Source: Paracoccaceae bacterium (GTDB taxonomy: Bacteria > Pseudomonadota > Alphaproteobacteria > Rhodobacterales > Rhodobacteraceae). From it: a stretch of 64,000 nt of DNA. Each line of letters opens with the position of its first letter. The first letter of the stretch is position 1. Made by a program: the position numbers and the translations under genes. This document shows positions 3,760 through 19,697 of this stretch, in pieces. The DNA is taken from the NCBI GenBank assembly GCA_902554885.1, contig CACDPV010000003.1, positions 1 to 64,000 of the forward strand, read 5' to 3'. The notes below the pieces were generated by a model. The model saw nothing but the letters and a program-made list of their open reading frames with translations, had not been told where the DNA came from and ran no database searches.

Positions 3760-4149
3760 TTATTTCAATAAATACAGAGCAAATCCAGCAATAGCTATAT
3801 GGGCTACTGTAATAAGAACGGACGCTGTATGCAGTAACACAAATTTGCGCTTATGCTTGTTGTCCGAAGCCGAATTTATTGCTGGCATTAAAATTAAGCC
3901 AGTTGGGATAGTCGTAATCGCGATGACGAAAACTAATAAAAAAGCATCAAAATTTTTGAACACCAAAGTCGACGAAGCGATTATAGCGACACTGAATACG
4001 TAAAGATAAAAGAATGGAAACGTATTACGGATAAGTTGCCGGGCAATAGGAACGTCCAAAAACTTGAAAGCAAGTGTACCAAACCCTAAAGAAAAAAGTA
4101 ACATTCCTCCAAAGAGAAATGCTACTAATAGTAAGGAGAAAAACTCCAT
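3760..4149 (-). CDS. DUF4149-like integral membrane protein
   Basis: The 129-residue product is almost entirely hydrophobic with about four predicted transmembrane segments: residues 5-30, 42-62, 67-88 and 106-127. A short charged loop, SDNKHKRK, lies before the last helix. The pattern resembles the DUF4149/TMEM205-like family, whose biochemical role is unknown. It is the last gene of a three-gene minus-strand operon: the stop of the preceding 47-residue gene is only 5 bases from its start. The partner DoxX-like gene suggests a membrane-located function, but nothing more specific can be inferred. Confidence 0.6.
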   Translation of the reverse strand: MEFFSLLLVAFLFGGMLLFSLGFGTLAFKFLDVPIARQLIRNTFPFFYLYVFSVAIIASSTLVFKNFDAFLLVFVIAITTIPTGLILMPAINSASDNKHKRKFVLLHTASVLITVAHIAIAGFALYLLK

Positions 4150-4154
4150 ATAAT

Positions 4155-4298
4155 TTATACTCCCTTAAGGAAAAGGCTCAAAAATGCCAATACCATCAAG
4201 GCAAAGAAAGAAGCAGTAATGCCAATCATCATTTTCATCTTAATTTTCGAATAAATCTCAGCAGCTGTTTCAGCTTTTTCTTTATCACCCTTTTTCAT
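4155..4298 (-). CDS. Single-pass membrane microprotein (47 aa)
   Basis: A 47-codon frame lies between the DoxX-like and DUF4149-like genes. The product has a charged N-terminal half with lysine and glutamate (MKKGDKEKAETAAEIYSKIK) and one clear C-terminal transmembrane helix (about residues 24-45). The start is ATG at 4298 with GAGGG about 9 bases upstream. It is separated by 24 bases from the upstream gene and 5 from the downstream gene, which supports translation as part of the operon. I know no named family. It could be a small subunit or stabiliser of one of its two membrane neighbours (inference). Confidence 0.6.
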   Translation of the reverse strand: MKKGDKEKAETAAEIYSKIKMKMMIGITASFFALMVLAFLSLFLKGV

Positions 4299-4322
4299 CT
4301 GATCATCCCTCTATTGCTAAAT

Positions 4323-4757
4323 TTATGTCCTATTTCCTCTGAGTGCGAAAAACAGACCACCTACCCATAAAAATACATGCAGGTTATCGTACAAAATCAC
4401 ATCAACAAGGCTCTCAGGTTGACCGATCCAAATTACACCAGTGGTTATTGAGCATATCGTGATACCGGAAAATCTAGTTATCATATCCCCAAGCTCAGGC
4501 ACCAATTTTTGTATTGACGCTAGTTTTGCAGCAAACAACCCTCCAACTAATAACCCTATACCCGCGCCAAGTTCACCGTAAGACACGAACCACCAAACGA
4601 GGTAGGGTAGTTCATAAGCTTCTGCATCTTCTGCTGTAACCGGGAATTTAGACAAGCCCTGCTGAATGAAAATAATTGATAGTGGAATACGAAATAGCCA
4701 ATGACTCATACAAAACTCTGGTATCTTCATTGAAATACGTTTCAAAATCATATCCAT
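4323..4757 (-). CDS. DoxX-like membrane protein
   Basis: The 144-residue protein has four predicted membrane segments. The element FRIPLSIIFIQQGLSKFP in the first helix, followed by a helix with YGELGAGIGLLVGGL, is typical of the DoxX/DoxD-like superfamily of small quinone- or redox-associated membrane proteins. The start used is the first ATG; a second at residue 10 is possible. It heads a three-gene operon with the microprotein and the DUF4149-like protein; about 210 non-coding bases upstream should hold the promoter. The substrate is unknown. Confidence 0.65.
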   Translation of the reverse strand: MDMILKRISMKIPEFCMSHWLFRIPLSIIFIQQGLSKFPVTAEDAEAYELPYLVWWFVSYGELGAGIGLLVGGLFAAKLASIQKLVPELGDMITRFSGITICSITTGVIWIGQPESLVDVILYDNLHVFLWVGGLFFALRGNRT

Positions 4758-4971
4758 ATTAATAAACCTTCCTACTTAATCTTATATTTCATAAATTGTT
4801 TTGGCCTCTCACAATGGATTTGTGAGATCAAATTGCTATCAAAGATACGAATGGAGAGTTCCTACAGATCACTAAATAAGTTAGATGCGGCAGGATACCG
4901 CACCAATCTTATTTATAACCTGTAATTTAAATTTTTCTTATCGAGATAATATTAAGCTTTTAGAAAAAGAC

Positions 4972-6012
4972 TTATTTATTAATTGAAAATCGTTGCTTTA
5001 TATTTCCCCAAAGTTTAGCCATCCCCAAGGGTTCATATATCATAAATACTATGATCAATACACCAAACACGACCTGTTCTATCGATGAAATAATCGTTGC
5101 GTCAATCGCGCCATGGAAAACATTATTTCCTACGCTATTGAGCAATACGGGGAATAAAAGAATAAAAGCAGCCCCAATAAAAGCCCCACTTATTGTACCT
5201 AGGCCACCTAGAATAACCATAAATAAAATTTTAAATGATAATTTGATATCAAAAGCGACCGGCTCTAACGATTTTAGATAAGTGAACGCAAATAGAGCGC
5301 CAGCAACCCCACAATAGAAAGCGCATATAGCAAACGCCTGTAATTTTGTTTTGAGCAAGGATATTCCCATAGACTCCGCAGCGATGTCCATGTCGCGAAC
5401 GGCCATCCAATTACGACCGGTACTCCCTCTTGCCATATTCACCGCGAGAACCGTCAAAACGGTCACAACGACGAGTATCACAAGGTACATCTCTAAAGGT
5501 GAGGTGAATGGCTTGCCAAGTATTACTATATCTTGGGCAGTAATAATTCCGGACGTATCATAATTTTTGAACCAACCAAATTTATCAATCATCCATACAA
5601 TGAAAAATTGAGAGGCAAGTGTCGCAACCATTAAGTAGATGCCTCTTACTCTGAGGCTTGGTAATCCGAACAAAATTCCAAAAGCGGCTGCTACTAATCC
5701 AGATAATCCGAGTGCAACAAAAAACGGTATGTCTGGCACTCTGAGGATCAAGTTGAAGCAAGCAAAGGCACCCGCAGCCATAAAGCCGGCCGCTCCTAAA
5801 GCCAACTGCCCGGCGTAACCCATGACTATCTGCTGCCCAATGGCCGCCAAAGCTAAACACAGCCACGGTATAAGGATAGAAGAATACCAATAGTCTGTCT
5901 GCACTACCAAGGGGATTGCGACAAAAGAGAGGATCATAGCAATCAAAAAGTTTGTTAAGTCAGATCTTGTATATCCCATAAAACTATTATTGTTACTCAC
6001 TTTTTGCTCCAT
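4972..6012 (-). CDS. livM: ABC transporter permease, LivM family
   Basis: This 346-residue inner-membrane permease has about 9-10 hydrophobic segments. It carries the LivM hallmark GLPSLRVRGIYLMVATLA and the EAA-like loop GRNWMAVRDMDIAAESMGI, followed by KLQAFAICAFYCGVAGAL and MVILGGLGTISGAFIGA. It forms the translocation channel together with LivH. It is the last gene of the five-gene importer, 3 bases after livH. The family takes up branched-chain amino acids, but also urea, short amides and other small organic acids, so the substrate cannot be fixed from the permease. Confidence 0.9.
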   Translation of the reverse strand: MEQKVSNNNSFMGYTRSDLTNFLIAMILSFVAIPLVVQTDYWYSSILIPWLCLALAAIGQQIVMGYAGQLALGAAGFMAAGAFACFNLILRVPDIPFFVALGLSGLVAAAFGILFGLPSLRVRGIYLMVATLASQFFIVWMIDKFGWFKNYDTSGIITAQDIVILGKPFTSPLEMYLVILVVVTVLTVLAVNMARGSTGRNWMAVRDMDIAAESMGISLLKTKLQAFAICAFYCGVAGALFAFTYLKSLEPVAFDIKLSFKILFMVILGGLGTISGAFIGAAFILLFPVLLNSVGNNVFHGAIDATIISSIEQVVFGVLIIVFMIYEPLGMAKLWGNIKQRFSINK

Positions 6013-6015
6013 AAT

Positions 6016-6918
6016 TTATACTCGTCTAATTATCTTCTCACCGAATAGACCTTCAGGCCGATACAGCAAGAAAAAGATCGCCAGAACGTATGGCGCCCAA
6101 CCCTCAATGGCTCCACCAAAAAATGGACCCAAATAAACTTCAAGTACCTTCTCGGTGGCACCAATAATCAACCCCCCAATGATAGCTCCAGGGATGGAAG
6201 AAAATCCTCCAATGATCAAAACAGGTAGTGCCTTGAGTGCCAAATCTACCAAGGCAAATTGGACACCAGCTCGGGCACCCCACATCATTCCCGCTACCAA
6301 AGCAACAACGCCCGCGGCTGACCAGACTAATAACATGATGTTTTTTAAGGGGATACCGATTGAGCTGGCAGCACCAGGGTCGTCTGCAACCGCTCTCAAG
6401 CCCAGTCCCATCCTTGTATATTTAAACAACAAAGCTAAACCTATAATGAGCACTGCCGCGACTATGCCCGCTGTCACATCCAGTGCACTTACAAAAAGAC
6501 CAAAAACATCGATTATCCACTCAATTGGGAAATCACCAATACCTAGATCAAGTCTTCTGACTTCAACTCCCCATGCTGCTTGAGCAAGTCCTTCTAGAAC
6601 AAAACCCAAACCAATTGTTGCCATCAGTAACGTATCTTCACTTTGGTTCATTAAAGGATTGAGCACTAACCTCTCAGTACAAAACCCAACAAGAACCATG
6701 AGTAAGACAGTCACCACAAAGGACACGGGAAATGATAATCCTAACTCCATGAAGCCCACAAAGGCCAAAACTGCGAAAAAAACCATCGCACCTTGCGCAA
6801 AGTTAAATGTGGAAGATGCTTTGTAAATAAGAACAAACCCTAAAGCGACAAGAGAATACATAGTACCGGCAAGTAATCCCGCTACCACAACTTCAATGAA
6901 AAATAGTACTTCAGTCAT
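6016..6918 (-). CDS. livH: ABC transporter permease, LivH family
   Basis: This 300-residue permease has LivH features: an N-terminal GLLAGTMYSLVALGFVLIYKAS that leads into FNFAQGAMVFF, the cytoplasmic coupling loop GLGLRAVADDPGAASSIGI, and IGGFSSIPGAIIGGLIIG near the end. About eight membrane helices are visible. It pairs with LivM. The start overlaps the end of livG by 8 bases and its stop lies 3 bases before livM, so translation is probably coupled. Confidence 0.92.
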   Translation of the reverse strand: MTEVLFFIEVVVAGLLAGTMYSLVALGFVLIYKASSTFNFAQGAMVFFAVLAFVGFMELGLSFPVSFVVTVLLMVLVGFCTERLVLNPLMNQSEDTLLMATIGLGFVLEGLAQAAWGVEVRRLDLGIGDFPIEWIIDVFGLFVSALDVTAGIVAAVLIIGLALLFKYTRMGLGLRAVADDPGAASSIGIPLKNIMLLVWSAAGVVALVAGMMWGARAGVQFALVDLALKALPVLIIGGFSSIPGAIIGGLIIGATEKVLEVYLGPFFGGAIEGWAPYVLAIFFLLYRPEGLFGEKIIRRV

Positions 6919-7741
6919 GTGAAACCCCCAAATACGCGTCGATCACTTCCTGATTAGCTCGCACTTCGTCTGGAGGCCCATCAGCAATTATCTTTCCATA
7001 ATCCAAAACAACAACATTATCAGAAATGTCCATAACCACTCCCATGTCATGCTCGATCAAAACCATCGTCGTTCCGAGTTCGTCATTCACTTTGAGGATA
7101 AATCTGCACATCTCTCTTTTTTCTTCAACGTTCATTCCAGCCATGGGCTCGTCTAACATCAAGAAATCGGCCTCTGTTGCTAAAGCTCGTCCAAGCTCAA
7201 CTTTTTTCTGCAAACCATAAGGCAGCTTACCAACTGGCGTATTTTTAATGTCCGCTATTTCTAAAAAGTCGACAATTTCTTCGCACTTTGCTAGATTTTC
7301 TTTTTCTTCGGCTCTTGCTTTTGGAAGTTGAAACGCAACCTGCATGAAATTTGAGTTCATATGCAACCGTCGTCCGACGAGGATATTGTCCAAAACAGAC
7401 ATTCTCTTAAATAACGCCAAATTTTGAAATGTACGCGATATACCTTTTTGGGCAATCAGGTTTGGCGTAATTTTTTCTAAAACTTTACCTTTGAAGGCAA
7501 TTGATCCTTCTTGTGGCTGGTAGATACCGTTAATACAATTTAGAAGCGAGCTTTTACCTGCACCATTCGGTCCAATTATCGCTTTAATTTCGTGTTTTAG
7601 AACGGAGAAGGAACTGTCAGTAATCGCTTTGACACCCCCGAAACGCAGCGAAATGTTTTTCACTTCTAAAACTGGTTCACCAATTGGAAAATTTCTATCT
7701 ATAGTCATTGTACCCTGTTCAATATTTGGAGTTTCCTTCAA
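6911..7741 (-). CDS. livG: ABC transporter ATP-binding protein, LivG family
   Basis: This 276-residue cytoplasmic ATPase has a Walker A GPNGAGKSS at 57-65, the switch-like segment SRTFQNLALF typical of LivG, a degenerate signature LPYGLQKKVELGRALA, Walker B FLMLDEPMAGM and the H-loop LIEHDMG. The N-terminus is about 20 residues longer than in most LivG proteins; an ATG at residue 12 or an internal start is possible. It lies 10 bases after livF and overlaps livH. It energises import together with LivF. Confidence 0.92.
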   Translation of the reverse strand: MKETPNIEQGTMTIDRNFPIGEPVLEVKNISLRFGGVKAITDSSFSVLKHEIKAIIGPNGAGKSSLLNCINGIYQPQEGSIAFKGKVLEKITPNLIAQKGISRTFQNLALFKRMSVLDNILVGRRLHMNSNFMQVAFQLPKARAEEKENLAKCEEIVDFLEIADIKNTPVGKLPYGLQKKVELGRALATEADFLMLDEPMAGMNVEEKREMCRFILKVNDELGTTMVLIEHDMGVVMDISDNVVVLDYGKIIADGPPDEVRANQEVIDAYLGVSHD

Positions 7742-7751
7742 ACGCTTTGCT

Positions 7752-8564
7752 TCAAGCTAGTTTTTTAGTTTCTTCTTCCCGTAATACGTCACGGAAGTTC
7801 TTTCGCCCTTCCTTCGATATACCAAGATAGAGTTCCTTAACTTTCTCGTCATTAAGTAGTTCATCAGCTGAGCCATGAAGCATTACGTGTCCTGTTTCAA
7901 TTATATACCCGTAATCAGCGTTACGCAGTGCAACGTTGGTATTCTGCTCTGCCAGCAAAATACTGACCCCCTCTTTTTCATTCAGTTCTTTTACAATATT
8001 GAAAATTTCCGCAACTAGCTGAGGTGCCAATCCCATAGATGGTTCATCTAACAGAAGCATCTTTGGTTTTGCCATCATGGCTCTCGCAACAGCTATCATC
8101 TGCTGCTCTCCACCCGATGTAAAGCCCGCCTGGCTTTTCCTACGATCGCGCAAACGATTGAAGTAACCATAAATCTTCTCTAATTCATCTTTAATTTGTG
8201 ACTTTGATAATTTGCGGGAATATGCCCCGGCAATAATGTTTTCTTCTACTGTTAGGTGACCAAAGCATCTTCTTCCCTCGAGTACTTGCACCATTCCCAA
8301 CGTAACCATTTCGTAAGGGTTTTGATTCTTTACCTCAGTCCCATCGTAAACAATACTGCCTTTTGTGACTTTTCCTCTTTCTGCTGCCAACATCGTAGAT
8401 ATTGACTTTAACGTTGTGCTTTTACCGGCGCCATTACCGCCCAAGAGCGCAACAATTTTACCCTTCGGTACATTAAGAGACACATCATGAAGTGCAGAAA
8501 TTACGCTATCATACATGACCTCAATACTATTTATCTCTAAAATATTATCGGAATTCCCAGTCAT
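7752..8564 (-). CDS. livF: ABC transporter ATP-binding protein, LivF family
   Basis: This 270-residue ATPase has Walker A GGNGAGKST at 42-50, the signature TSGGEQQMIAVARAMM, Walker B MLLLDEPSMGLAP and a conserved LLAEQN H-loop region that has glutamine in place of His, as usual for LivF. The C-terminus extends about 20 residues past the common end with a charged tail (RKNFRDVLREEETKK). The gene lies downstream of the binding-protein gene, after a 132-base gap with a hairpin terminator, so it and the following three genes are probably expressed by read-through. Confidence 0.92.
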   Translation of the reverse strand: MTGNSDNILEINSIEVMYDSVISALHDVSLNVPKGKIVALLGGNGAGKSTTLKSISTMLAAERGKVTKGSIVYDGTEVKNQNPYEMVTLGMVQVLEGRRCFGHLTVEENIIAGAYSRKLSKSQIKDELEKIYGYFNRLRDRRKSQAGFTSGGEQQMIAVARAMMAKPKMLLLDEPSMGLAPQLVAEIFNIVKELNEKEGVSILLAEQNTNVALRNADYGYIIETGHVMLHGSADELLNDEKVKELYLGISKEGRKNFRDVLREEETKKLA

Positions 8565-8654
8565 TTATTCTCTCTCAGTATTTGGCCGCATGTTTTTAGC
8601 TTATTGACTGGTCAATAACTATCTATGCTTACCCATTAGTTGTATATTTGCAAA

Positions 8655-8681
8655 AAGACCAGCGGTTTACCCGCTGGTCTT
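8655..8681 (-). terminator. Intra-operon hairpin terminator between binding protein and livF
   Basis: An 11-bp perfect stem (AAGACCAGCGG with CCGCTGGTCTT) and a 5-base loop lie just after the stop of the binding-protein gene. On the minus strand it is followed by TTTTT; on the plus strand by a T-rich run as well. Its position inside the operon fits partial termination, giving more binding protein than membrane components, as is common for ABC importers. Confidence 0.8.
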
Positions 8682-8696
8682 ATTTTTTTTGATGTC

Positions 8697-10043
8697 TTAT
8701 GGACAAACCTTAGGAGTGATGTTGTTTTCAGCTGCGAACTTTGCTGCTGAAGCTTCAACAAGCCCCCTGATGTAAGCAGGGTCCATAGGAGCCTCCCAAC
8801 CAGTTACTTGATTGAACTTTTCACCATCCCACTGCATCACAGCAAATTTACCAGCACCCTCATGGTTAGCACATGAGATGCTAAACGGCGCTACCATTCC
8901 TTTGACGCCTATTTCGCCAAGACGAGCTTCAGTCATATTCAGAGCTTCGTACCCATCTCTGAATTCAGCGCCTGTGACAGCTTTTCCAACTTTGTTATGC
9001 ATTTCTTGAGCATTTTTCAAAGCTTCGATCCACATTACAGCAGCGCCTAGACCACGGTTCCAATAAACTGAACCAACACGACTGTCGTCGTTAAGGTTAC
9101 CTTTTCCAGCACCATATACTTGCTCTTTGATTGCAGCAACCAATGGATAATCTGCACCAGGTAGCGCGTTTGCAACGGCGTATGTTCCGACCGCTGCGTC
9201 ACCCGCAGGATACATATCCTCTTCGGCCGCACCAAATGTAACATACATCATGCGATCTCTTGGAAAACGAATTCTTGCAGCATTTGTCATGGCAGTAGAA
9301 TTCATACCAGAGCCAGCTCCCCAGAAAGTTACCCAATCCGGCTGCTCTTTTCTGATTTGAAGCCATTGAGACCCTTGCTCCAATCCGGGTGGCGGTATTG
9401 AAATCTCAACAAGCTCTACGCCCCAATCTTTTGCAATTGAACGCATCGCTGGTAATGGCTCACGACCATATGCGGAATCAATGTGAAGGTGTACAATCTT
9501 TTTACCCTTCATTTTGTCTACGCCACCTTCTTGTTCTGCCATAAATTTCATTTTCACAGCAATTTGTGACCAATAATGGCTAGCAGCATTGAACACCCAT
9601 GGCCACACTCGACCATCCGCACCATCGGTACGTCCGTATCCATACTGAGCAAGAACAACATTGTCCTCCGCCATTCGATTAATCACGGCGTATGCCCCTG
9701 GTGTTCCTAAAGTGTCAAATACCACAATCCGTTGACCATCTTTCTCAAGAAGTCTTTGGTAACATTCCACTGTTTTCACAGCATTATACTCAGTTTCACA
9801 CTCTTGCCATGTCAACATTACTCCATTGACACCGCCATTCATGTTTACATAATTCATGTAATCAATTTGAGCACCGTAGTACCCAGTACCCATCGCAGAA
9901 TAGGGTCCAACCCTACTACTGGCTATCGGGAAATATTGCTTCTCTTCTCCAAACGCTATTTGAGGAGTAGCAAACATTGATAGAGCACCAGCAGCGACCG
10001 CTACTGAACCAATCAAGTAGTTTTTTAAAGTTTTAAAAATCAC
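8697..10043 (-). CDS. ABC transporter periplasmic substrate-binding protein (LivK-like, type 1)
   Basis: This 448-residue protein has a Sec signal: a basic MIFKTLKNY start, a hydrophobic core, and likely cleavage near residue 32 (QIAFG before EEKQ). The mature part shows the type 1 periplasmic binding fold used by Liv-type importers, including DTLGTPGAYAVINRMAEDNVVLAQYGYGR and a late CANHEGAGKFAVMQWDG segment. It is longer than amino-acid LivJ/LivK proteins (about 370), resembling relatives that bind aromatic, amide or other non-amino-acid ligands. It is the first gene of the importer operon; the ligand is unknown. The ATG has AGGAGG-like sequence (GGGAGGAAAAGG) upstream. Confidence 0.88.
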   Translation of the reverse strand: MIFKTLKNYLIGSVAVAAGALSMFATPQIAFGEEKQYFPIASSRVGPYSAMGTGYYGAQIDYMNYVNMNGGVNGVMLTWQECETEYNAVKTVECYQRLLEKDGQRIVVFDTLGTPGAYAVINRMAEDNVVLAQYGYGRTDGADGRVWPWVFNAASHYWSQIAVKMKFMAEQEGGVDKMKGKKIVHLHIDSAYGREPLPAMRSIAKDWGVELVEISIPPPGLEQGSQWLQIRKEQPDWVTFWGAGSGMNSTAMTNAARIRFPRDRMMYVTFGAAEEDMYPAGDAAVGTYAVANALPGADYPLVAAIKEQVYGAGKGNLNDDSRVGSVYWNRGLGAAVMWIEALKNAQEMHNKVGKAVTGAEFRDGYEALNMTEARLGEIGVKGMVAPFSISCANHEGAGKFAVMQWDGEKFNQVTGWEAPMDPAYIRGLVEASAAKFAAENNITPKVCP

Positions 10044-10428: not shown

Positions 10429-13209
10429 CTATTCAGCAGCAATGGATTTCGAGACCGCTTCGACTCTAACCGCCGAAAATTTGAATTCTGGGATCTTACC
10501 ATAAGGATCAATTGCCGAATTCGTCAAAATATTTGCTGCTGCCTCAACATATGCAAATGGCAGAAACACCATGTCCTCTGATACCGCTCTATCAGAGCGA
10601 GCCATTAAGGCTATATTCCCACGCTTCGTTGTCAATTTTACAAACTCGCCCGGTGCTACACCTAATTTCCGTAGAGTTTTTGGATGCAGTGAGCAATTGG
10701 CTTCTGGTTCTACTGCGTCGAGCACCTTTGACCTTCGCGTCATAGAGCCAGTGTGCCAATGCTCCAATAGCCGTCCAGTGGTTAATATCATAGGATAATC
10801 TGCGTCTGGAGTTTCATCTGGTGCAATTACCGATGCGGGCGTAAATTTTGCACGGCCCTCTGGTCTTGGAAACCCTTCACCAAAAACAATAGGCTGCCCA
10901 GGATCAGTTTCTGATAGTGATGGATAAGTTACCGCGCTATCGTTTTCCAAACGGTTCCAAGTAATATTATCTAGCGACCGCATATTTATCGCCATTTCAT
11001 TAAAAACTTCTGACGGATCTTTGTAGTTCCAATCCAGCCCAACTCTTTTAGCGAGCTCAACCTCTATCCACCAATCAGCCTTTGCAAGTCCAGGAGGTAC
11101 GACAGCAGGCCTCGCCATTTGTACCTGCCTATTTGTATTTGTAACCGTTCCAGACTTCTCGGCAAATGCTGCAGCAGGTAAAATTACATCTGCATAATTT
11201 GCTGTCTCAGTAATAAATATGTCTTGGACAACAAGGTGCTCTAACTTTGCCAAAGCATCTCGCGCATGCCCGACATCTGGATCAGACATAGCGGGATTTT
11301 CTCCCAGTATGTACATGCCTTTTATTTTATTATCGTGGACTGCATCCATTATCTCAGTGACAGTAAGACCCTTTTCAGCACTGAAATCTCCAGAATTCCA
11401 AACTGATGTAAATGAATTCCTGACACTTTGATCTGTAACCGTCTGATAATCAGGAAGAAACATTGGGATCAGTCCTGCATCAGATGCACCTTGCACATTA
11501 TTTTGCCCTCGTAGCGGATGCAATCCGGTTCCTGGCCTACCTATTTGCCCGCTCATAAGTGATAGAGAGATCAAACACCTGCTGTTATCCGTCCCATGTA
11601 TGTGCTGTGAAACCCCCATACCCCAAAAAATCATTGCAGCTTGGGCGCCTGCGAATGTCCTAGCCACATCTCGCAAAACCCCCGGCTCGATACCACAAAT
11701 CTCACTCATTTTTTCAGGTGAGAAGTTTTTCAAGTGGGCCTTTTCTGCCTCCCAATTTTCCGTATAAGCTTCTATATATTGCTTGTCGTATAGACCCTCT
11801 TCAACAATGACATGCATTATTGCATTAAGCATAGAAACATCCGCTCCCGGACGAAATTGAAGCATGTGGCTTGCAAATCTTCTCAATGCCTGACCGCGTG
11901 GATCCATCACAATTAATTTTCCACCTCGCTTTGCAAACTGCTTGAAATAGGTTGCGGCAACCGGGTGGTTTTCTATCGGGTTAGCACCAATTACTATGGC
12001 AACATCTGCATTTTCAATCTCATTAAACGTAGCCGTGACGGCAGCTGACCCAACATTTTCCATCAACGCAGCAACAGAGGATGCGTGACATAATCTGGTA
12101 CAATGATCTACATTATTATGACCAAAACCTTGGCGAATGAATTTTTGGAATAAATACGCTTCTTCGTTGGTGCATTTCGCGCTTCCAAAGCCCGCAACGG
12201 TCTGCCCGCCTTGCTCGTCTCTTAGATCTCTTAAGCCTTTAGCAGCAAAATCCAGCGCTTCATCCCATGTTGCCTCTCGAAAAAAATCAGACCAATTGTT
12301 TGGATCAACGTTCAACCCCTTTTCGGGCGCATCACTTCTTCTTATTAGTGGTTTTGTAAGCCGATGATCATGATGAATGTAATCAAAACCAAATCGGCCT
12401 TTAACGCAAAGCCTTCCCTCATTCGCGGGTCCATTGATCCCTTCTACAAACTTAATTTTGTTGTCTTTAACTTTCAAGGAAACTTGACATCCTACCCCGC
12501 AAAAAGGGCAAACGCTTTTCACTTCCTTATCATAATCTTTGCTATCACCGACTTGCCCCTCATCAACTACTGAAGACGGCATCAAGGCACCTGTAGGACA
12601 GGCCTGAACGCACTCTCCACAGCCGACACAAGTTGAAGAACCCATAGGATCTGCCATATCAAATGTTGGGTAAGAGTTGTGACCACGCCCTGACATTCCA
12701 ATTACATCATTTACTTGAACTTCTCGACAAGCGCGCACACACAAGCCACATTGAATACATGCATCGAGACTAACAGACATTGCCACATGAGAATCATCCA
12801 AAATTGGAACACGATCCTGCTCTAGTCGTGGCAATCTACTTTCTTGTACATCATTTAATTCAACCATATCCCAGAAATGGCTAGATTTATCATGAGCTAA
12901 TGTTCTTTGAGGCTGATCAGCAACTAGCATTTCGACCACCATTTTTCTAGCGGCTTCAGCGCGCTGGGTCGCAGAATTGACCACCATTCCGGGTTGTGGC
13001 TCTCGTATACACGAAGCGGCTAGTGTCCTTTCGCCCTCTATTTCAACCATGCAAGCCCTACAGTTTCCATCAGGCCGATATCCTGGCTTGGGCTTGTGGC
13101 ATAAATGCGGTATTGTCAGGCCTTGTCCATTTGCAACTTCCCAAATCGATTGTCCTTTTTCTGCATATACAGTCTCACCATCAAGTACAAATTCGATCTT
13201 TTCACTCAT
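10429..13209 (-). CDS. fdsA: NAD-dependent formate dehydrogenase, alpha subunit
   Basis: This 926-residue molybdenum bis-MGD enzyme oxidises formate to CO2 in the cytoplasm. In order: an N-terminal [2Fe-2S] ferredoxin domain (C37, C50, C53, C67), two 4Fe-4S sets (C151/154/157/161 and C194/197/200/204), a CxxCxxxC motif with a fourth Cys (C234/237/241/268) leading into the molybdopterin domain, and RLCHASSV with C374 at the position of the Mo-ligand Cys/Sec. The C-terminal dinucleotide-binding part contains TTGRLLEHWHTG. There is no twin-arginine signal, consistent with the soluble Fds type. It lies 3 bases after the fused fdsGB gene; electrons would pass to NAD+ through that subunit. No fdhD or fdsD was found in the window. 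Confidence 0.93.
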   Translation of the reverse strand: MSEKIEFVLDGETVYAEKGQSIWEVANGQGLTIPHLCHKPKPGYRPDGNCRACMVEIEGERTLAASCIREPQPGMVVNSATQRAEAARKMVVEMLVADQPQRTLAHDKSSHFWDMVELNDVQESRLPRLEQDRVPILDDSHVAMSVSLDACIQCGLCVRACREVQVNDVIGMSGRGHNSYPTFDMADPMGSSTCVGCGECVQACPTGALMPSSVVDEGQVGDSKDYDKEVKSVCPFCGVGCQVSLKVKDNKIKFVEGINGPANEGRLCVKGRFGFDYIHHDHRLTKPLIRRSDAPEKGLNVDPNNWSDFFREATWDEALDFAAKGLRDLRDEQGGQTVAGFGSAKCTNEEAYLFQKFIRQGFGHNNVDHCTRLCHASSVAALMENVGSAAVTATFNEIENADVAIVIGANPIENHPVAATYFKQFAKRGGKLIVMDPRGQALRRFASHMLQFRPGADVSMLNAIMHVIVEEGLYDKQYIEAYTENWEAEKAHLKNFSPEKMSEICGIEPGVLRDVARTFAGAQAAMIFWGMGVSQHIHGTDNSRCLISLSLMSGQIGRPGTGLHPLRGQNNVQGASDAGLIPMFLPDYQTVTDQSVRNSFTSVWNSGDFSAEKGLTVTEIMDAVHDNKIKGMYILGENPAMSDPDVGHARDALAKLEHLVVQDIFITETANYADVILPAAAFAEKSGTVTNTNRQVQMARPAVVPPGLAKADWWIEVELAKRVGLDWNYKDPSEVFNEMAINMRSLDNITWNRLENDSAVTYPSLSETDPGQPIVFGEGFPRPEGRAKFTPASVIAPDETPDADYPMILTTGRLLEHWHTGSMTRRSKVLDAVEPEANCSLHPKTLRKLGVAPGEFVKLTTKRGNIALMARSDRAVSEDMVFLPFAYVEAAANILTNSAIDPYGKIPEFKFSAVRVEAVSKSIAAE

Positions 13210-13212
13210 TGG

Positions 13213-14895
13213 TTATACCTCATCCGGGAAATGCCGTAATGTCAACTTTATAGGGTTTGAAGCAGCTTGGCCTAACCCACAAATTGAAGCGTCTCCCATC
13301 GCAGTACAAATGTCTGTTAGAAGCTCTGCATCCCACTTTGGCTGCTCAAGCAATTTAACTGCTTTTTCACACCCTACTCGACATGGCGTGCACTGCCCAC
13401 AGCTTTCATCTTCAAAAAACCTGAGCATATTTAATGCAGCATCCCGCGGCTTGTCCATTTGAGATAAAATAACAACCGCTGCAGACCCAATGAATGTGTC
13501 CAGTGACTGCAAGGTATCAAAGTCCATTGGAACATCATTAATAGATGCAGGCAACAGACCCGACGACGGGCCCCCAGGCTGATACGCTTTGAAGGTATGA
13601 CCATCTAACATACCGCCACACGCATCAATAATATCTATAATAGTAGAACCAGATGGCAGAAGATGAACACCAGGGTTTTTTACCCTGCCGGATACCGAAT
13701 AGCTACGCAAACCTATTCTACCATTTTTTTTCGTTCCAGAAAATATCTCACCGCCCTCGCGGCATATTCGCGCTATCCAATGTAGCGTTTCGACATTGTG
13801 CACAAGCGTAGGCCTACCAAATATTCCGACCTGCGCAACAAATGGAGGTCGATGCCGCGGAATACCACGTTTCCCTTCTATACTTTCTATCATCGCGCTC
13901 TCTTCGCCACAAATGTAGGCACCGGCTCCACGGCGAAGGTCAATATAACCTTCTTTAACAATACCTGCATTCTCCAATTTTATGATTTCATCTTTTAATA
14001 TCTTAAGAACGGATGGATACTCATCCCGCATGTAAATATATGCTTTCTCGGCTTCAACCGCCCAGGCTGCGATCAACATCCCTTCAAGAAATAAGTGGGG
14101 GGTACGTTCGAGATAATATCTATCCTTAAACGTGCCCGGCTCGCCCTCATCACCATTAACAGCGAGATATCTTGGGCCCTCGTTTGCTCTAACAAACTCC
14201 CATTTCTTTCCTGAAGGAAATCCCGCACCTCCAAGCCCACGAAGACCAGCATCCAAGATTTTAGTCTGCACTTCTTTCCAGTCGCCTGATTTACGAAGGA
14301 ATTTTAATGTCTCGTATCCACCAGAGGAGACATACTCTGAAAATCTTTCATACTTCGGGATTGTTGGGTGCACATGGTTATTTTCAATTGCCTCTGTCAC
14401 CTTTTCAAAGGTAGCATTATCGATGTGAGCGTGTCCTATCTCTAGTGCCGGAGCAGTATCGCACCGGCCCATACATGGAGCACGCAAAACCCGTACCTCA
14501 GATGGATCTAAGCCATCTTCTAGATTTTTTTTCAGCGTGTCGGCTCCAGCTATCATGCAAGATAAGCTATCACAAACGCGAATTGTTAATTTTGGAGGAG
14601 GTAGTTGACCATCTCTTACAATATCAAAATGAGCATAAAAAGATGCTACTTCATACACTTCCGCCGATGACATTCTCATCTCTTCCGCCAAAGCTCGCAT
14701 GTGGGCTGTACTTATACACCGAAATTTGTCTTGGATTAAATGCAAGTGCTCAATCAGCATATCACGCTCGAGCCGTTTACCTACTAGAAGGTCTTTTACC
14801 TGAGCCCAAGCGGCGTCATCTAAAGGCCTACCTTTTGTGTGAGCCCGCCCTTTGCCCTTAGCGGACTTCCATATCCCTGATTCAATTTTTCCCAT
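13213..14895 (-). CDS. fdsB: Formate dehydrogenase, fused gamma-beta (FdsG-FdsB, NuoE-NuoF-like) subunit
   Basis: This 560-residue protein joins two subunits that are separate in Rhodobacter capsulatus. Residues 1-160 are NuoE/FdsG-like, with [2Fe-2S] cysteines C108, C113, C141 and C145. The remainder is NuoF/FdsB-like, with GLRGLGGAGFPSGKKW and NGDEGEPGTFKDR for FMN/NADH binding, GAGAYICGEESAMIESIEG, and the 4Fe-4S motif ESCGQCTPCRVGC near the end. It carries electrons from FdsA to NAD+. The frame is open to 14964, but the ATG at 14895 (MGKIESGIWK) begins the homologous region; the upstream 23 residues are hydrophobic and AT-rich and are probably not translated. It lies between the LysR gene and fdsA. 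Confidence 0.92.
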   Translation of the reverse strand: MGKIESGIWKSAKGKGRAHTKGRPLDDAAWAQVKDLLVGKRLERDMLIEHLHLIQDKFRCISTAHMRALAEEMRMSSAEVYEVASFYAHFDIVRDGQLPPPKLTIRVCDSLSCMIAGADTLKKNLEDGLDPSEVRVLRAPCMGRCDTAPALEIGHAHIDNATFEKVTEAIENNHVHPTIPKYERFSEYVSSGGYETLKFLRKSGDWKEVQTKILDAGLRGLGGAGFPSGKKWEFVRANEGPRYLAVNGDEGEPGTFKDRYYLERTPHLFLEGMLIAAWAVEAEKAYIYMRDEYPSVLKILKDEIIKLENAGIVKEGYIDLRRGAGAYICGEESAMIESIEGKRGIPRHRPPFVAQVGIFGRPTLVHNVETLHWIARICREGGEIFSGTKKNGRIGLRSYSVSGRVKNPGVHLLPSGSTIIDIIDACGGMLDGHTFKAYQPGGPSSGLLPASINDVPMDFDTLQSLDTFIGSAAVVILSQMDKPRDAALNMLRFFEDESCGQCTPCRVGCEKAVKLLEQPKWDAELLTDICTAMGDASICGLGQAASNPIKLTLRHFPDEV

Positions 14896-14982
14896 ACTCG
14901 GCCTACATATGTATACAATCAAAAAATACAGATAATTTTGATAAATTCCAATACAAATAATCAAAGGTGCGATTTGAAATGA

Positions 14983-15861
14983 TTATAATGCTGACTTAAC
15001 AGCTTTTCGAAGAGCCTCAATCATCGGAAGCACTGGGGATTGATCTTTAATGGAAAGACCAACTGAGTGGGTAAAAACAGGACGGATCAAATCTAATTGT
15101 TTGGTGGATTTTAAATCCAAAAATGTCTGTGCAACGCTTACAGGTGCAATTGTCGCTGCGTTACCCGCGGCAACCTGAGCCAAAACAGCGGTAAAATCAC
15201 TGGCTTCAGTGACTATACTCGGGGAGATTCCCAAATCTAAAAAGTGCCGGTCTAATAGTTGGCGATTTTTCATATTTTGAGTCAACAGACATAGAGGAAT
15301 TTGCGCGACTTCTGTCCATGTAATTTGCCTCTCTTTAGAAACCGCTAGTGACTTAGGCGCGATGAAAACATATCTTTCTTCGTAAAGTTTTACCGTTGTC
15401 TCTGGATCTCCATCATCGAAGTAAAGTATTCCTGCGTCTAGTGAAAAATCATTAAGCTTGCGTACGATTTGGTGAGTAGACTCAGAATAAATCTCTATAG
15501 ATAAATTAGGGTGCTTTCCTCGAAGTTTTGCTGAGACACGTGCAGCAAATGGCATTGCCGTGGGTATTACTCCAAGCGACAATGTACCGTTTAGATCGTT
15601 TTTTAGGGAAGCGATCTCTTGCCTCATACCTTCCTCGTCAGCTAAAAGCTTTCTGGCCCACTTCAGCACTACTTCACCCTCTTTAGTAAACCCCTGAAAG
15701 CTATTACCGCGACGCACTAAAGGTAGTTTGAGACGCTCCTCTAATTTTCTAATTCGCGTCGAAAAAGCAGGTTGTGAAATATTACAGTCCATTGCGGACC
15801 TTGAGAAATTTCTTGTCCTAGACAACGACACCAACATTTGTAAATCTCGAAGTTCAGACAT
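14983..15861 (-). CDS. LysR-family regulator, likely of the formate dehydrogenase operon
   Basis: This 292-residue LysR-type transcriptional regulator has an N-terminal winged helix (MSELRDLQMLVSLSRTRNFS, then SQPAFSTRIRKLEERLKLPLVRR at about 29-52). The C-terminal two-lobe effector domain includes GTLSLGVIPTAMPFAARV. It lies directly upstream of fdsGB on the same strand with an 87-base gap, and Fds operons often carry such a regulator as first gene. Control of the operon in response to formate is an inference from position. Its own promoter should lie in the 15862-16130 region. Confidence 0.85.
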   Translation of the reverse strand: MSELRDLQMLVSLSRTRNFSRSAMDCNISQPAFSTRIRKLEERLKLPLVRRGNSFQGFTKEGEVVLKWARKLLADEEGMRQEIASLKNDLNGTLSLGVIPTAMPFAARVSAKLRGKHPNLSIEIYSESTHQIVRKLNDFSLDAGILYFDDGDPETTVKLYEERYVFIAPKSLAVSKERQITWTEVAQIPLCLLTQNMKNRQLLDRHFLDLGISPSIVTEASDFTAVLAQVAAGNAATIAPVSVAQTFLDLKSTKQLDLIRPVFTHSVGLSIKDQSPVLPMIEALRKAVKSAL

Positions 15862-16204
15862 AGTTTTCCTAAATCACTTTTATAAAAATTAAATACCCAA
15901 TGCTGCCTAGAAAGGATGTGACAACAGGGAGGTAGTCACTACGCTTATCAATCAGTTGCGTCCTCAAAACTAGTTTTATGCACCTGAAGCGTCAATAGCG
16001 TCTTTCAATTCAAAAAGTGAACTAAATACATAAATAAATAAATACAATTACCTCAAAAACTATAGTCTATTTTCTAATGAAATGGTAACACACCAAGCAT
16101 ACAATTTAGTTATTAATAAATATAGTCATTAATAAAAAACTGCAGCGAAACCGCTGCAGTTTTTACTTTTTTCAATAGCCAAAGAGTTAGAGTCAGTAAT
16201 ATCT
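15862..16204. other. 343-base intergenic region: puf terminator and LysR promoter region
   Basis: The right end holds the strong hairpin listed at 16135-16164. The rest is AT-rich, presumably with the promoter of the LysR-fds operon read leftwards. I found no reading frame that looks coding and no tRNA. No light-harvesting (pufB/pufA) frame is present here. Confidence 0.6.
16135..16164 (-). terminator. Rho-independent terminator of the puf operon
   Basis: A perfect 13-bp stem (AAAAACTGCAGCG with CGCTGCAGTTTTT) around an AAAC loop lies about 40 bases after the pufX stop. T-runs follow on the minus strand, and also on the plus strand, so it can work in both directions. It closes the puhC-pufLMX locus and isolates it from the LysR-fds operon. 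Confidence 0.9.
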
Positions 16205-16420
16205 TTAATCTGTACTCGATACAAATGAGTCCGGCGTCGGGTCATCTGCAAGTTTTGACTCCGCTGGGAGAAATTCACCCAGCCACATGAGCGCAACTAT
16301 AAATACTACTGGTACTCCAACTAGAGCCCCGGCGACTAATGATCCTGAAAACATCTGCCCAAAAATTTGAGCAATTGACATTTCCCTGTCCCAAGACTCT
16401 TTCGTATTTCTACTATCCAT
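16205..16420 (-). CDS. pufX: PufX-like reaction-centre associated membrane protein
   Basis: The 71-residue product lies right after pufM, the place of pufX in Rhodobacter. It has a polar N-terminus, a GQMFSGSLVAG element entering a single transmembrane helix (about residues 24-45), then a LPAESK-x-DDPTP segment. Rhodobacter PufX proteins share GxQMxxG before the helix and LPxxxxxAPxP after it, so the assignment rests on position, topology and these spots. PufX opens the LH1 ring for quinone exchange and affects dimer formation. The frame is open from a GTG at 16429, but the ATG at 16420 has GAGGTGA in front. Its presence is odd because no LH1 genes lie nearby. PufQ and PufC were considered and do not match. 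Confidence 0.75.
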   Translation of the reverse strand: MDSRNTKESWDREMSIAQIFGQMFSGSLVAGALVGVPVVFIVALMWLGEFLPAESKLADDPTPDSFVSSTD

Positions 16421-16430
16421 TTTGATCACC

Positions 16431-17354
16431 TCAATTCATTGGAGCATAGCCATGCAGCTGCGCCCAATAGTACCAATTATCTACCACAGTACCTGTAAGA
16501 AGTATTCCGATGCCTCCGGTAATTGTGGTTAGAACTGCAAACCACCAAGCCCACCGATGTATACCTTCCATCGAAGCATTAAAGCCCATGGTCCATCGCC
16601 AGAACAAAGCAGCACGCTCGGATGCTGTACCACGATCAGCAATTTGCTCTAATTCTCTATCACCACCAAACCTGGATACGGCTAAAATCGTCGCTCCGTG
16701 CATGGCAAACAATAATGCGGAGCCATAAAGGAACGCAATGCTCAAGGCGTGAAATGGATTGTAAAAAAGATTACCGTAGACTACGGAAAAATTCATTGTC
16801 CAATCAAGGTGACTAAAAATCCCGTACGGGACAGCCTCCGACCAACTGCCCATTAGGACTGGTCGAATTAAACCAAGAACTAGGAAAAGCCATATTGCAG
16901 CACCAAAAGCGTAAAATACATGCTTACCCATTTTAAGCTGCCTTGCTAGTTCGTAAGATCGCAACCACCATGAAAGCACTGAAACAAGTAAAAAGAAACT
17001 AGCGATTAGCCACAAGCCACCTTCCTTCATAGGAGGCATACTCAAACCGTATTCTTCGGTAGGTGGCTCCAAGGAGAAGTAAAATAGATCGCGTAGGAAT
17101 ATCGCTGGATTATAATCAGCCTGTGCCCAATAACTTGCGCCTACTATTACAAACCAAATCAAGCCTGTAGCGAGACCCACCACACCAAAAGACCCTAGAT
17201 AGATGGGACCAAGTTGAGCATTACCAAACCAACCTAACAATTTAGAAAATCGAGCTGAATTTGTCCTATCATTGAGAGGCACACCCTCTTCAACCCCCAT
17301 TTCTGGAGGTCCTTGAACCTGCACCTGCGTAAAAATATTCTGATACTCAACCAT
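16431..17354 (-). CDS. pufM: Photosynthetic reaction centre M subunit
   Basis: The 307-residue protein has the same length as Rhodobacter sphaeroides PufM and an almost identical start ([16 protein letters not shown]). Five membrane helices bind the bacteriochlorophylls, bacteriopheophytin and quinone QA. All key residues are in place: H182 and H202 (bacteriochlorophyll ligands), H219, E234 and H266 (non-haem iron ligands) and W252 at QA. The frame is open five codons further upstream, but the ATG at 17354 is preceded by GGAGG and matches the family start. It overlaps pufL by 8 bases, the usual coupled arrangement. The gene appears intact and under selection. It is type II, purple-bacterial. 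Confidence 0.97.
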
Positions 17355-18195
17355 TGACGCCTCCCTCAATATCTACCCACATAGGGAGATCTACATACCA
17401 AAACCACCATTCAGACCAAGCATCGAACCAAACTGTGCCAGAGATGACGATACATATCGCAGACCAGATTACTGCGTTGAGCGCGAGCAATAGTCCAAGA
17501 CGATGGATGCCCAGCGGCCCAATAGAATAGCCTATAAAATCACGAAAAAAAGTATCTTCATGATCCGGTGAGCGCATTTCGTTACCTTTTTCTGGATTGG
17601 CTGCTGAAAGAATAAGCGAGCCGTGCAACGCCAATGCTAGTGTCGTTGTGAAAAATAAACTGACGGCAATCATATGAGCAGGATTATAGTGAAAATTACC
17701 ATATGCATAACCAACGTTATTGACCCAATCAAGATGTGACCAAATTCCATATGGAAAGCCATGGCCCCACGCCCCCATTAATACAGGGCGAATTACAACA
17801 AGCGTTGTGTAGGCCAAAATTGCAACTGCAAAAGCGACTGGGACATGTAAACCCATTCCTAGCTTTCTCGAGATTTCAACCTCACGCAAAGCCCATGAAA
17901 TAAATGCGCCGTGAGCGCAGATTGTAATTAATTGCCAGAGCCCACCTTCTTTCAAGGGTGCAAAGCCCAGACCAACTTCAAGTTCTGGTGGTTCAATTGA
18001 AATAAGCCATGGGTTCCAAGTATCACCAATAGCAGCGCCATAAAAAATTAAAATTGTTCCAAGTAAAGCGAAAAAGGCAACCGAGAGCCCCCAGAAGCCC
18101 ACATAAAAGGGGCCAACCCAAAAGTCACAAAGGTCGCCTCCTACTAAGGTACCTCCGCGAACTCGATATTTTTTTTCAAAAGATAAAAGAGCCAT
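17347..18195 (-). CDS. pufL: Photosynthetic reaction centre L subunit
   Basis: The 282-residue protein equals R. sphaeroides PufL in length. Counting the initiator Met, H154, H169 and H174 (near or on bacteriochlorophylls), H191 and H231 (iron ligands) and the E213-D214 pair that delivers protons to QB are all present; they correspond to L153, L168, L173, L190, L230, L212 and L213 in the usual numbering. The motif DHEDTFFRD and the C-terminal [12 protein letters not shown] are intact. The product sits in the inner membrane with PufM and subunit H. It is the first gene of the pufLMX operon; unusually, no pufB/pufA precede it. AAGGAT lies just before the ATG. Confidence 0.97.
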
Positions 18196-18307
18196 AAATT
18201 ATCCTTCTCTTCCGTAGGTATACCTGTCTTACCAACGTCGATGTTTGAGCTTCCATTGAATTCTCAAATGAAAGCGCGTGAATCACAGGTAGATTCCTTC
18301 TGCTCTG

Positions 18308-18335
18308 AGGATAAAAAAAGAAATAAATATGTCAA
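18308..18335 (-). promoter_or_regulatory. Candidate sigma-70-type promoter of pufLMX
   Basis: On the minus strand TTGACA (18330-18335) and TATCCT (18308-18313) are separated by 16 bases, about 110 bases before the pufL start. The -35 is consensus and the -10 is moderate. It would give a leader of roughly 105 bases. The TGT-N12-ACA site lies 15 bases upstream of the -35. Confidence 0.5.
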
Positions 18336-18349
18336 TTAAAATTTACAGT

Positions 18350-18369
18350 GTGTAAGGTTATATTTACAC
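18350..18369. promoter_or_regulatory. PpsR/CrtJ-type palindrome upstream of pufL
   Basis: The site contains TGT-N12-ACA (18351-18368) inside a 6-bp inverted repeat GTGTAA-N8-TTACAC. This is the recognition pattern of the aerobic photosynthesis repressor PpsR/CrtJ. A further half site TTACA (18343-18347) overlaps on the left, so three TGTAA half sites alternate in orientation. It touches the puhC stop codon and lies just upstream of the candidate puf promoter. The short consensus can occur by chance; position favours function. Confidence 0.5.
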
Positions 18370-18809
18370 TATTGTTCTAATATATCACGAAATACTAAAA
18401 TATTATCTTCGCCAAAGCCCATTAAATCTACTTCTTTTTCAGATGATGGGTCAAAAATACTTAACCGGCCATTCTCTTTTTGTTGTAATAGTAGAGGGCC
18501 AGATTTATCTAAGTTCCTTTTAAGCCGGTCTCTATTTATGACAGTTAACACAGTGGAAACAAATGATTGCTCTCCTTTCGGATACTCGACTAAGATAGCT
18601 CCGTTTTCATTTAAAATTTTTGTCGCCAAATCATCACTTTGTTCAATATAAATCAGTTTACTGCCAGTAATACTGCTATTTGAGGACACGTTTATCGGCT
18701 CAAAATTGAAAAATTGAAATCCAATTACAAATAAAATCGATGCAACCATCGCACCCGGAACCAGCCACTGGGGCTTAAGCGACCTTATTATCTTGCGAGC
18801 ATGAAACAA
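18369..18809 (-). CDS. puhC: Photosynthetic complex assembly protein PuhC
   Basis: The 146-residue protein has one N-terminal membrane helix (about residues 18-35, VPGAMVASILFVIGFQFF) and a periplasmic domain. The C-terminal half follows the PuhC pattern: FVSTVLTVINRDR, GPLLLQ, NGRLSIFDPSSEKEVDLMGFG and a final FRDIL. PuhC assists assembly of the reaction centre and LH1 in purple bacteria. The frame begins with TTG at 18809; an ATG at residue 21 would cut into the helix, so TTG is preferred. Normally puhC follows puhA-puhB; here those genes are absent and puhC is placed 173 bases before pufL on the same strand, a rearranged order. Confidence 0.85.
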   Translation of the reverse strand: MFHARKIIRSLKPQWLVPGAMVASILFVIGFQFFNFEPINVSSNSSITGSKLIYIEQSDDLATKILNENGAILVEYPKGEQSFVSTVLTVINRDRLKRNLDKSGPLLLQQKENGRLSIFDPSSEKEVDLMGFGEDNILVFRDILEQ

Positions 18810-19202: not shown

Positions 19203-19697
19203 ATGTTCAACAAAATGTCAAAAAGAGAATTTATCGCAGCATCTGCGGCATTAACTGGCTCATTACTTATGTCAAAAACAGCAATGGGATCTACCAAATA
19301 TGAAATCCTAATGCTTAATAAAGATCCCGAAAACTCTAAAAACAAGATGATTTTTTCACCACGTTTATTGAAAGTACAGGTAGGTGATGAAGTAAGCTTT
19401 TTACCAACTGACAAAGGTCATAATAGCGAAATCATTAAAGGAATGTTGCCGGCTGGTGCTGAAAAATGGAAGGGAAAGATTAACAAACAAGTTGACGTCG
19501 TATTTGATACGCCAGGTTTTTACGGTTATCAATGCAAACCCCACGCAAATATGGGTATGATTGGTCTTATCGTCGTCGAAGGTGACGGGATGCTCGATAA
19601 TCTTGAGGAAGCCAGATCTGTAAAACACAGAGGCAAAGCCAAAAAGGCTTGGAAAGCTTTGTGGGAAGAAGCAGACGCTGCGGGATTTACAGCTTAA
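19203..19697 (+). CDS. Pseudoazurin (type 1 blue copper protein)
   Basis: This 164-residue periplasmic cupredoxin has type 1 copper ligands H73 (KGHNSEI), C111, H114 and M119 in QCKPHANMGM, the pseudoazurin arrangement. The N-terminus (about 1-29) is a signal with MSKREFIAASAAL; it resembles a twin-arginine signal with a Lys-Arg pair, otherwise a Sec signal. A GGAG lies 7 bases before the ATG. Pseudoazurin shuttles electrons between periplasmic partners, classically bc1 complex and nitrite reductase. The C-terminus carries about 30 extra residues with EARSVKHRGKAKKAWKAL, as usual for the family. Being divergent from the reaction-centre genes, it is a candidate electron donor to them, but this is only inferred from position. 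Confidence 0.9.
   Translation: MFNKMSKREFIAASAALTGSLLMSKTAMGSTKYEILMLNKDPENSKNKMIFSPRLLKVQVGDEVSFLPTDKGHNSEIIKGMLPAGAEKWKGKINKQVDVVFDTPGFYGYQCKPHANMGMIGLIVVEGDGMLDNLEEARSVKHRGKAKKAWKALWEEADAAGFTA

Follow-up and report, generated by a model that had tools for sequence, protein, structure and literature searches.

Introduction

In operons of the Rhodobacter type, the genes for the photosynthetic reaction centre (RC), pufL and pufM, follow the light-harvesting complex 1 (LH1) genes pufB and pufA in the order pufQBALMX. The available parts of Brinkmann (2018, PMC6052148) give 22 of 44 strains without pufC, all of which carry pufX directly behind pufQBALM. Reported here is a puhC-pufLMX operon without pufBA, found on the minus strand of a 64,000 nucleotide stretch from a Paracoccaceae bacterium (assembly GCA_902554885.1, contig CACDPV010000003.1, positions 1–64,000), termed the window. 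It is very probably a functional stand-alone RC operon that works with LH1 genes situated in a photosynthesis cluster elsewhere in the genome.

The operon is similar to the Rhodobacter type, as far as the accessible text of PMC6052148 describes it, in its pufL-pufM-pufX order, in carrying PufX for PufC, and in the position of PufLM in the PufX-type part of the tree. It differs in that pufQ and pufBA are absent upstream and dxs is absent downstream. RC and puh genes joined without pufBA outside the main cluster are also seen in the pufLMC-puhCBA segment of Citromicrobium sp. JL354, which according to the available text of PMC3338782 is an extra copy of the PufC type, situated in an integrative and conjugative element beside a complete cluster. 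Unlike in Citromicrobium, the window-type unit holds the only pufL and pufM found in eight of nine genomes with a stand-alone unit (incomplete assemblies; the ninth, G010, shows two copies), is of the PufX type and has puhC as its sole puh gene. Extra RC genes have a precedent in Citromicrobium; what appears new is that the only RC genes found would stand apart beside an orphaned LH1, and an earlier environmental report of pufLM without pufBA is possible.

Photosynthesis clusters in several pieces, as here, are described for Methylorubrum extorquens, Loktanella vestfoldensis and others in the available text of PMC12654162. The accessible parts of Liu (2025, PMC12661815) report seven COR genomes that harbour both pufLMX and pufLMC types. 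These are probably the same organisms as the one treated here, since the G+C content is 40.9% in the window and 39–40.5% in COR-1/-2, at approximately 2.3 Mb. The main text of that paper does not contain the words pufBA, pufA, pufB, light-harvesting or pseudoazurin.

LH1 genes in a separate cluster

The genus sample consists of 16 genomes, and pufLM was found in 11. A stand-alone puhC-pufLMX unit without pufBA is present in 9 of these 11: G000 (the window genome), G001, G003, G004, G009, G010, G012, G013 and G014. In five of the nine (G001, G003, G004, G010 and G012) pufBA and pufLM are on separate contigs, with pufBA inside the bacteriochlorophyll (bch) gene cluster. The order bchXYZ-pufQ-pufBA-dxs is found in seven of seven split-type clusters, those of the five genomes named and of G002 and G015, and pufL, pufM and pufC give no match at E ≤ 1e-4 in any of the seven cluster stretches. 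pufLM was not found in the G002 and G015 genomes, although both have this cluster order. G007 and G011 carry pufBALMC inside the cluster and have a PufC-type RC. With pufBA in the cluster and pufLMX elsewhere, LH1 and the RC would be produced from two separate loci and come together in trans as an RC-LH1-PufX core.

All nine stand-alone genomes have a divergent pseudoazurin gene next to the unit, whichever of its two chromosomal contexts they show. In context A (the window, G003, G009, G012, G013 and one G010 contig) the pseudoazurin side borders a rhomboid gene, and beyond pufX there are a LysR gene and a dehydrogenase-like gene in five of six cases, where the contig continues. In context B (G001, G004, G014 and another G010 contig) the unit adjoins a relative of the window's DoxX gene; farther out, as the contig permits, there is a relative of the DUF4149 gene (in two pieces in G014) and then a gene of 444–457 amino acids (aa), which is a trigger factor in G001. 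G010 carries both a clade A and a clade B version of the unit (L054 and L055, contigs C76 and C44) as well as two rhomboid genes, and may be a mixed bin despite a reported contamination of 1%.

The same junctions are present in the independent assemblies CACOXV01 (AH-326-E22), PAHS01 (NAT183), CACDPP01 (AG-390-A18) and CACBXB01 (AG-359-N23), on contigs of 32–149 kb, which makes misassembly very unlikely. The window's own assembly is in 72 contigs and 53% complete, and this would favour a chimeric or mis-binned contig in an organism where pufBA truly precedes pufLM. However, the repeated junctions and the clusters of split genomes, which show pufBA without pufLM, leave this explanation a vanishingly small chance, and an assembly artefact is rejected. 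The first-pass annotation of the window had named pufBA joined to pufLM in related genomes, with an assembly break at this place, as grounds for abandoning a genuine split. Such a join does exist in G007 and G011, which are of the other RC type, but a break at this place is made unlikely by the junctions in independent assemblies.

That annotation had left two readings, a split cluster with LH1 encoded elsewhere, or RCs with a different core antenna or none. The pufBA genes found in the bch cluster on other contigs in five of nine relatives support the former. The whole-genome search it proposed for LH1 and puhA gave no match to PF00556 (LHC) at E ≤ 1 in the entire 1.46 Mb G000 assembly, and none to PRCH (puhA). 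Taken by itself, the missing LHC match would agree with an organism that builds RCs without LH1 or with a different antenna, but BchZ and PRCH are likewise missing from the same assembly. Of the 16 genus genomes, ten, split ones included, have both BchZ and an LHC score over the cut-off, and the remaining six, the window's among them, have neither. Since LHC and BchZ are missing together, the lack of LH1 in the window's genome is best put down to the 53% complete assembly. An antenna-less organism is rejected on this pattern, and a cell with no LH1 or a different core antenna is considered highly improbable. The annotation had also found no bch or crt gene in the window. The 64 kb were searched at E ≤ 1e-5 with 38 open reading frames of the G007 photosynthesis cluster and 14 sequences of puf genes, puhC and pseudoazurin, of which the window supplied five (52 queries in all), and nothing matched beyond the genes of the operon and the pseudoazurin gene next to it. 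This bears the statement out for genes within the two 20-kb G007 stretches searched; other bch and crt genes fall outside its scope.

Behind pufA in the split clusters, a remnant of the pufL start is clear in G012 (MELLSFKMKYR) and G003 (MVLLSFQRKYR). Of 35 bases of this G003/G012 remnant, 29 match the pufL start of G011, 28 that of G007, 26–27 those of G255 and L067, and 20–25 those of the stand-alone copies; the best of 20,000 shuffles of the G003 piece gave 19 matches. The cluster's own pufLM(C) would thus have been deleted behind pufA, with the start of pufL left in some genomes. The site of the stand-alone unit is empty in G006 and G011, where the ABC-transporter gene (window 8697–10043) directly adjoins the rhomboid gene (window 20041). 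The 10 kb missing there include the RC unit together with two formate-dehydrogenase-like genes (named by eye) and a LysR regulator gene (14983–15861), which in the window occupy 10429–15861 on the minus strand.

Between the pufL remnant and dxs lie 126 bases (L048 10258–10383, in G012; the same place in L052, G003), 125 of which are identical in the two genomes and which appear by eye to be rich in inverted repeats. A search of the remnant region against Rfam gave nothing over the gathering score, the best value being 17.4 bits with a cut-off of 40.

The RC is here uncoupled from LH1, and its type varies within one genus, with a remnant and an empty site to be seen and with both types together in G225, a genome of another genus. 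This suggests that the light-converting core is exchangeable on its own in one group of small-genome marine bacteria, which draw additional energy from light. Two questions become testable: what keeps LH1 and RC in proportion when they share no transcript, and whether a purple-bacterial RC is served by a copper donor. It is also a caution that pufM surveys type the reaction centre and not the whole cluster.

Rarity among relatives

In the family, an LHC gene is situated approximately 1.1–1.3 kb upstream of the PufM domain in 91 of 95 genomes. The 95 are the parsable ones among 100 genomes with pufLM in a set of 248 (G115, G143, G150, G197 and G255 were left out, and the position in G023 came from a separate search). 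The four without an adjacent LHC gene are the window, G043, G130, where the contig ends at pufL, and G229, which shows only pufM near the contig start. Among the best 30 pufL loci (81 genomes with a match out of 394 searched), 27 have pufBA upstream, the exceptions being the window, the second copy of G225 and G043. A comparison of 80 loci gave 69 with pufBA upstream, 5 with none and 6 with pufL or pufM at a contig end. The window does not have the pufBALM(X/C) arrangement, as pufB and pufA are not directly upstream of pufL.

Genes of the operon

Between 18809 and 16135, the minus strand carries in order puhC, pufL, pufM, pufX and a terminator hairpin. The puhC-like assembly factor gene (18369–18809, 146 aa, TTG start) is given no name by Pfam but scores 82.7 bits against NCBIfam TIGR03054 (cut-off 55). 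pufL (17347–18195) encodes the 282 aa RC L subunit, with a PF00124 (Photo_RC) E-value = 3.8e-96. pufM, for the M subunit, extends from an ATG at 17354 to 16431 (307 aa) and overlaps pufL by 8 bases; its 312 aa open frame shows PF00124 with an E-value = 9.4e-103. L and M are thus both full-length with a Photo_RC domain, as in type II reaction centres. pufX (16205–16420, 71 aa; PF11511 at 29.3 bits on a 74 aa open frame, cut-off 25) is found directly behind pufM and there is no pufC, which is the PufX-type gene order. An intrinsic terminator follows at 16135–16164, a near-palindrome forming a 13-pair hairpin and then T's. A terminator scan of this segment placed the 13-pair hairpin on the plus strand and a 5-pair hairpin within it on the minus strand; folding of the minus strand gave a single 13-pair hairpin before the T's at −20 kcal/mol.

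Of 22 positions compared in L and M, 15 for pigment, iron and proton path are as expected: in L, His153, His173, His190, His230, Glu212, Asp210, Asp213, Arg217 and Ser223, and in M, His182, His202, His219, His266, Glu234 and Trp252. Positions follow Rhodobacter numbering. The ratio of nonsynonymous to synonymous change (dN/dS) for pufL and pufM is 0.010–0.029 in the window's clade and 0.010–0.045 within clades, which is a strong constraint. Within-clade values are 0.04–0.14 for pufX and pseudoazurin and 0.14–0.22 for puhC. The puhC of the unit evolves very fast, with 38% identity between clades A and B where pufL shows 90% and pufM 87%.

Several statements of the first-pass annotation are upheld by these data. 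It had called pufL and pufM full-length and not decaying, in agreement with the expected residues and the low dN/dS (all four genes of the operon are intact), and had the operon closed by a terminator, as the 13-pair hairpin and T's at 16135–16164 indicate. The sizes of the gaps it described as free of LH1 (173 bases upstream of pufL, 393 beyond puhC and 343 after pufX) are correct and no LH1-like frame is found in them. The 393-base gap ends at the divergent pseudoazurin gene (19203–19697), which that annotation leaves unmentioned.

Promoter region

Between the puhC stop and pufL there are two tandem TGT-N12-ACA palindromes (18330–18368, minus strand) whose starts are 21 bases apart. The motif is that of PpsR/CrtJ-type sites. 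The best promoter-like match has a TTGACA that overlaps the palindrome nearer pufL. All 12 stand-alone units (ten copies from the genus, G043 and G225) have a tandem pair within 700 bases upstream of pufL, and none of four cluster-located puf operons does (G007, G011, L067 and G255); in G007, G011 and L067 such sites are situated farther upstream in the cluster. Sixty simulated windows of the same dinucleotide make-up gave two tandem pairs in total. The stand-alone pufLMX is predicted from these sites to be under PpsR/CrtJ-type regulation, and the operon would consist of puhC, a PpsR-type promoter region and pufL-pufM-pufX, expressed from there. There is no TGT-N12-ACA site in the window's gap between pseudoazurin and puhC, and an alignment of this intergenic region (8 sequences; G004 and G010a left out) shows no block common to both clades.

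Two reaction centre types and their history

The PufLM tree places the nine stand-alone copies in one clade (100/99); with L066, G255 and L067 they make up a PufX-type group (100/100). With more references this group grows by further pufBALMX genomes (13 rows, 100/99). G007 and G011 group with the PufC-type genomes G016, G114 and G130. A single clade for the copies of the genus is rejected by the approximately unbiased (AU) test (p = 5e-12), for which the group was picked after an earlier PufLM tree had been seen that skipped 4 of 94 rows. In the BchXYZ tree, by contrast, members of the genus come together whether split or unsplit (100/100). Comparison of the two trees shows that the disagreement between puf and bch concerns G007 and G011 rather than the stand-alone units. 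The PuhC tree shows no donor for the copy in the unit; the nine such rows form a group of their own (99/96), where long branches meet.

Some results weigh against a stand-alone operon whose cluster counterpart was deleted and whose LH1 is provided by the cluster. With LHC, PRCH and BchZ all missing from the window's own assembly, it is from relatives that the antenna of this cell, and the same cluster in it, would be deduced. The remnant in clade B is short, 17 of 18 bases in G015 and 12 of 12 in G001 and G002, albeit at the right place, and a clear one was not seen in G004 and G010. Promoter-like matches overall are not above shuffles (12 found, 10.4 expected). Further, the BchXYZ of the genus is sister to the PufX-type G255 and L067 (100/99, bootstrap not settled), so that the native RC type of the genus is not fixed; the G003/G012 remnant leans only slightly to the PufC type.

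A simple foreign takeover, the replacement of a native pufLMC by an incoming pufLMX, is weakened by this same placement, which is seen in both the BchYZ tree and the BchXYZ trees, the latter with PufC-type references. G225 (another genus, 98% complete) combines a pufQBALMC in its cluster with a separate puhC-pufLMX at another locus (L273 8045–10735, L274 7523–10978). The stand-alone unit adjoins the same ABC-transporter genes as in the window, has no pseudoazurin gene beside it, and groups with the genus copies at 86/87, which is not a firm value. A genome with both types makes an ancestor with two types, followed by reciprocal loss, likely. The genus ancestor would have carried pufBALMC in the cluster together with a separate puhC-pufLMX unit, and the former would then have been lost in most lineages, the latter in a few. 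This order of events is favoured, with a fair margin for error, by G225 and the grouping of its unit, by the neighbourhood genes (window 3760–10043) common to all three contexts, by remnant ends that differ between the two clades and by a between-clade dN for pufL and pufM of similar order in the two types (0.079 and 0.104 in pufLMX, 0.038 and 0.082 in pufLMC). The seven COR genomes with both types point in the same direction, as far as the available text of Liu (2025, PMC12661815) goes. However, 0 of the 16 genus genomes hold both types, the trees do not fix polarity, and synonymous change between the clades is saturated, so that dates are not comparable.

Alternatively, clades A and B may have received the stand-alone unit by later transfers, gene transfer agents being one possible route, and lost the cluster pufLMC afterwards. 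The different flanks in clades A and B and the clean empty sites in G006 and G011 would agree with such transfers. The stand-alone units of the genus are however one well-supported clade (100/99), and their common pseudoazurin-puhC-pufLMX order is simplest with one acquisition; this course of events is regarded as rather unlikely.

Either history would leave a stand-alone RC operon that works with cluster LH1 genes. A similar separation is found in G043 (the L066 genome), where puhB-puhC-pufQ-pufLMX lacks pufBA and a different contig carries pufBA, placed between bchZ and dxs. G001 and G015 have no native puhC in the puh operon; G003, G007 and G011 keep it. G003, a split genome of clade A, thus has the native puhC in its puh operon (L181 11890–12360) besides the puhC of the stand-alone unit.

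Pseudoazurin and the electron donor

The gene divergent from puhC (19203–19697, plus strand) encodes a pseudoazurin-type cupredoxin (NCBIfam TIGR02375 at 132.5 bits, cut-off 109.85; PDB 3tu6, E-value = 1e-31). Its His, Cys, His and Met ligands are visible. Of the 16 genus genomes, ten contain a copy with at least 72% identity, namely the nine with stand-alone units and G008 (at a contig end); the two PufC genomes, G007 and G011, have none. In Chloroflexus, the blue copper protein auracyanin serves a type II reaction centre. That organism is of another phylum, and pseudoazurin as donor is here suggested by gene linkage.

A cytochrome c gene that follows hemA in the cluster, identified as Pfam Cytochrom_C in G007, G003, G011 and G006, is present in G007, G006, G011 (87 residues matched), G003, G012 and G013, and gone in the clade B genomes G001 and G015. 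A donor swap in phototrophs of the open ocean is put forward tentatively, in which pseudoazurin would serve the RC in place of the PufC tetrahaem subunit, and in clade B also of the cluster cytochrome c, and would travel with the RC genes. A number of results stand against it. Clade A keeps the cytochrome c gene in three of three split genomes where it was found (G003, G012 and G013), and other cytochromes c with 35–44% identity, which could also serve the RC, are present in 12 of 16 genomes. The six presumed cytochrome-docking positions of L and M (L155, L162, M88, M95, M184 and M292) are unchanged, with M217 uninformative. G015, at 59% completeness, shows no pseudoazurin. Homologues in G043, G067, G110, G155, G189, G211 and G225, some on short contigs, are not beside cluster genes.

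Four further genera likewise have pseudoazurin-like genes inside their photosynthesis cluster or bordering it. In G255 (L205 8382–8846) pseudoazurin is situated directly behind hemA, which is the place of the cytochrome c gene in other clusters, and is sister to the genus copies (FastTree 0.93). In G261 (L218 14492–14929) a pseudoazurin-like gene stands between hemA and a cytochrome c gene. The order in G065 (L206 5713–6207) is pufX-pseudoazurin-bchY, and in G114 (L207 7720–8154) a pseudoazurin-like gene is beside dxs. Scoring of these in-cluster genes with TIGR02375 left out G261.

Minor observations

The pufL of G004 (L057 7084–8011) is read in two overlapping frames, which may be a frameshift or an assembly error. 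A tRNA gene is found at 2702–2785 of the window, on the minus strand.

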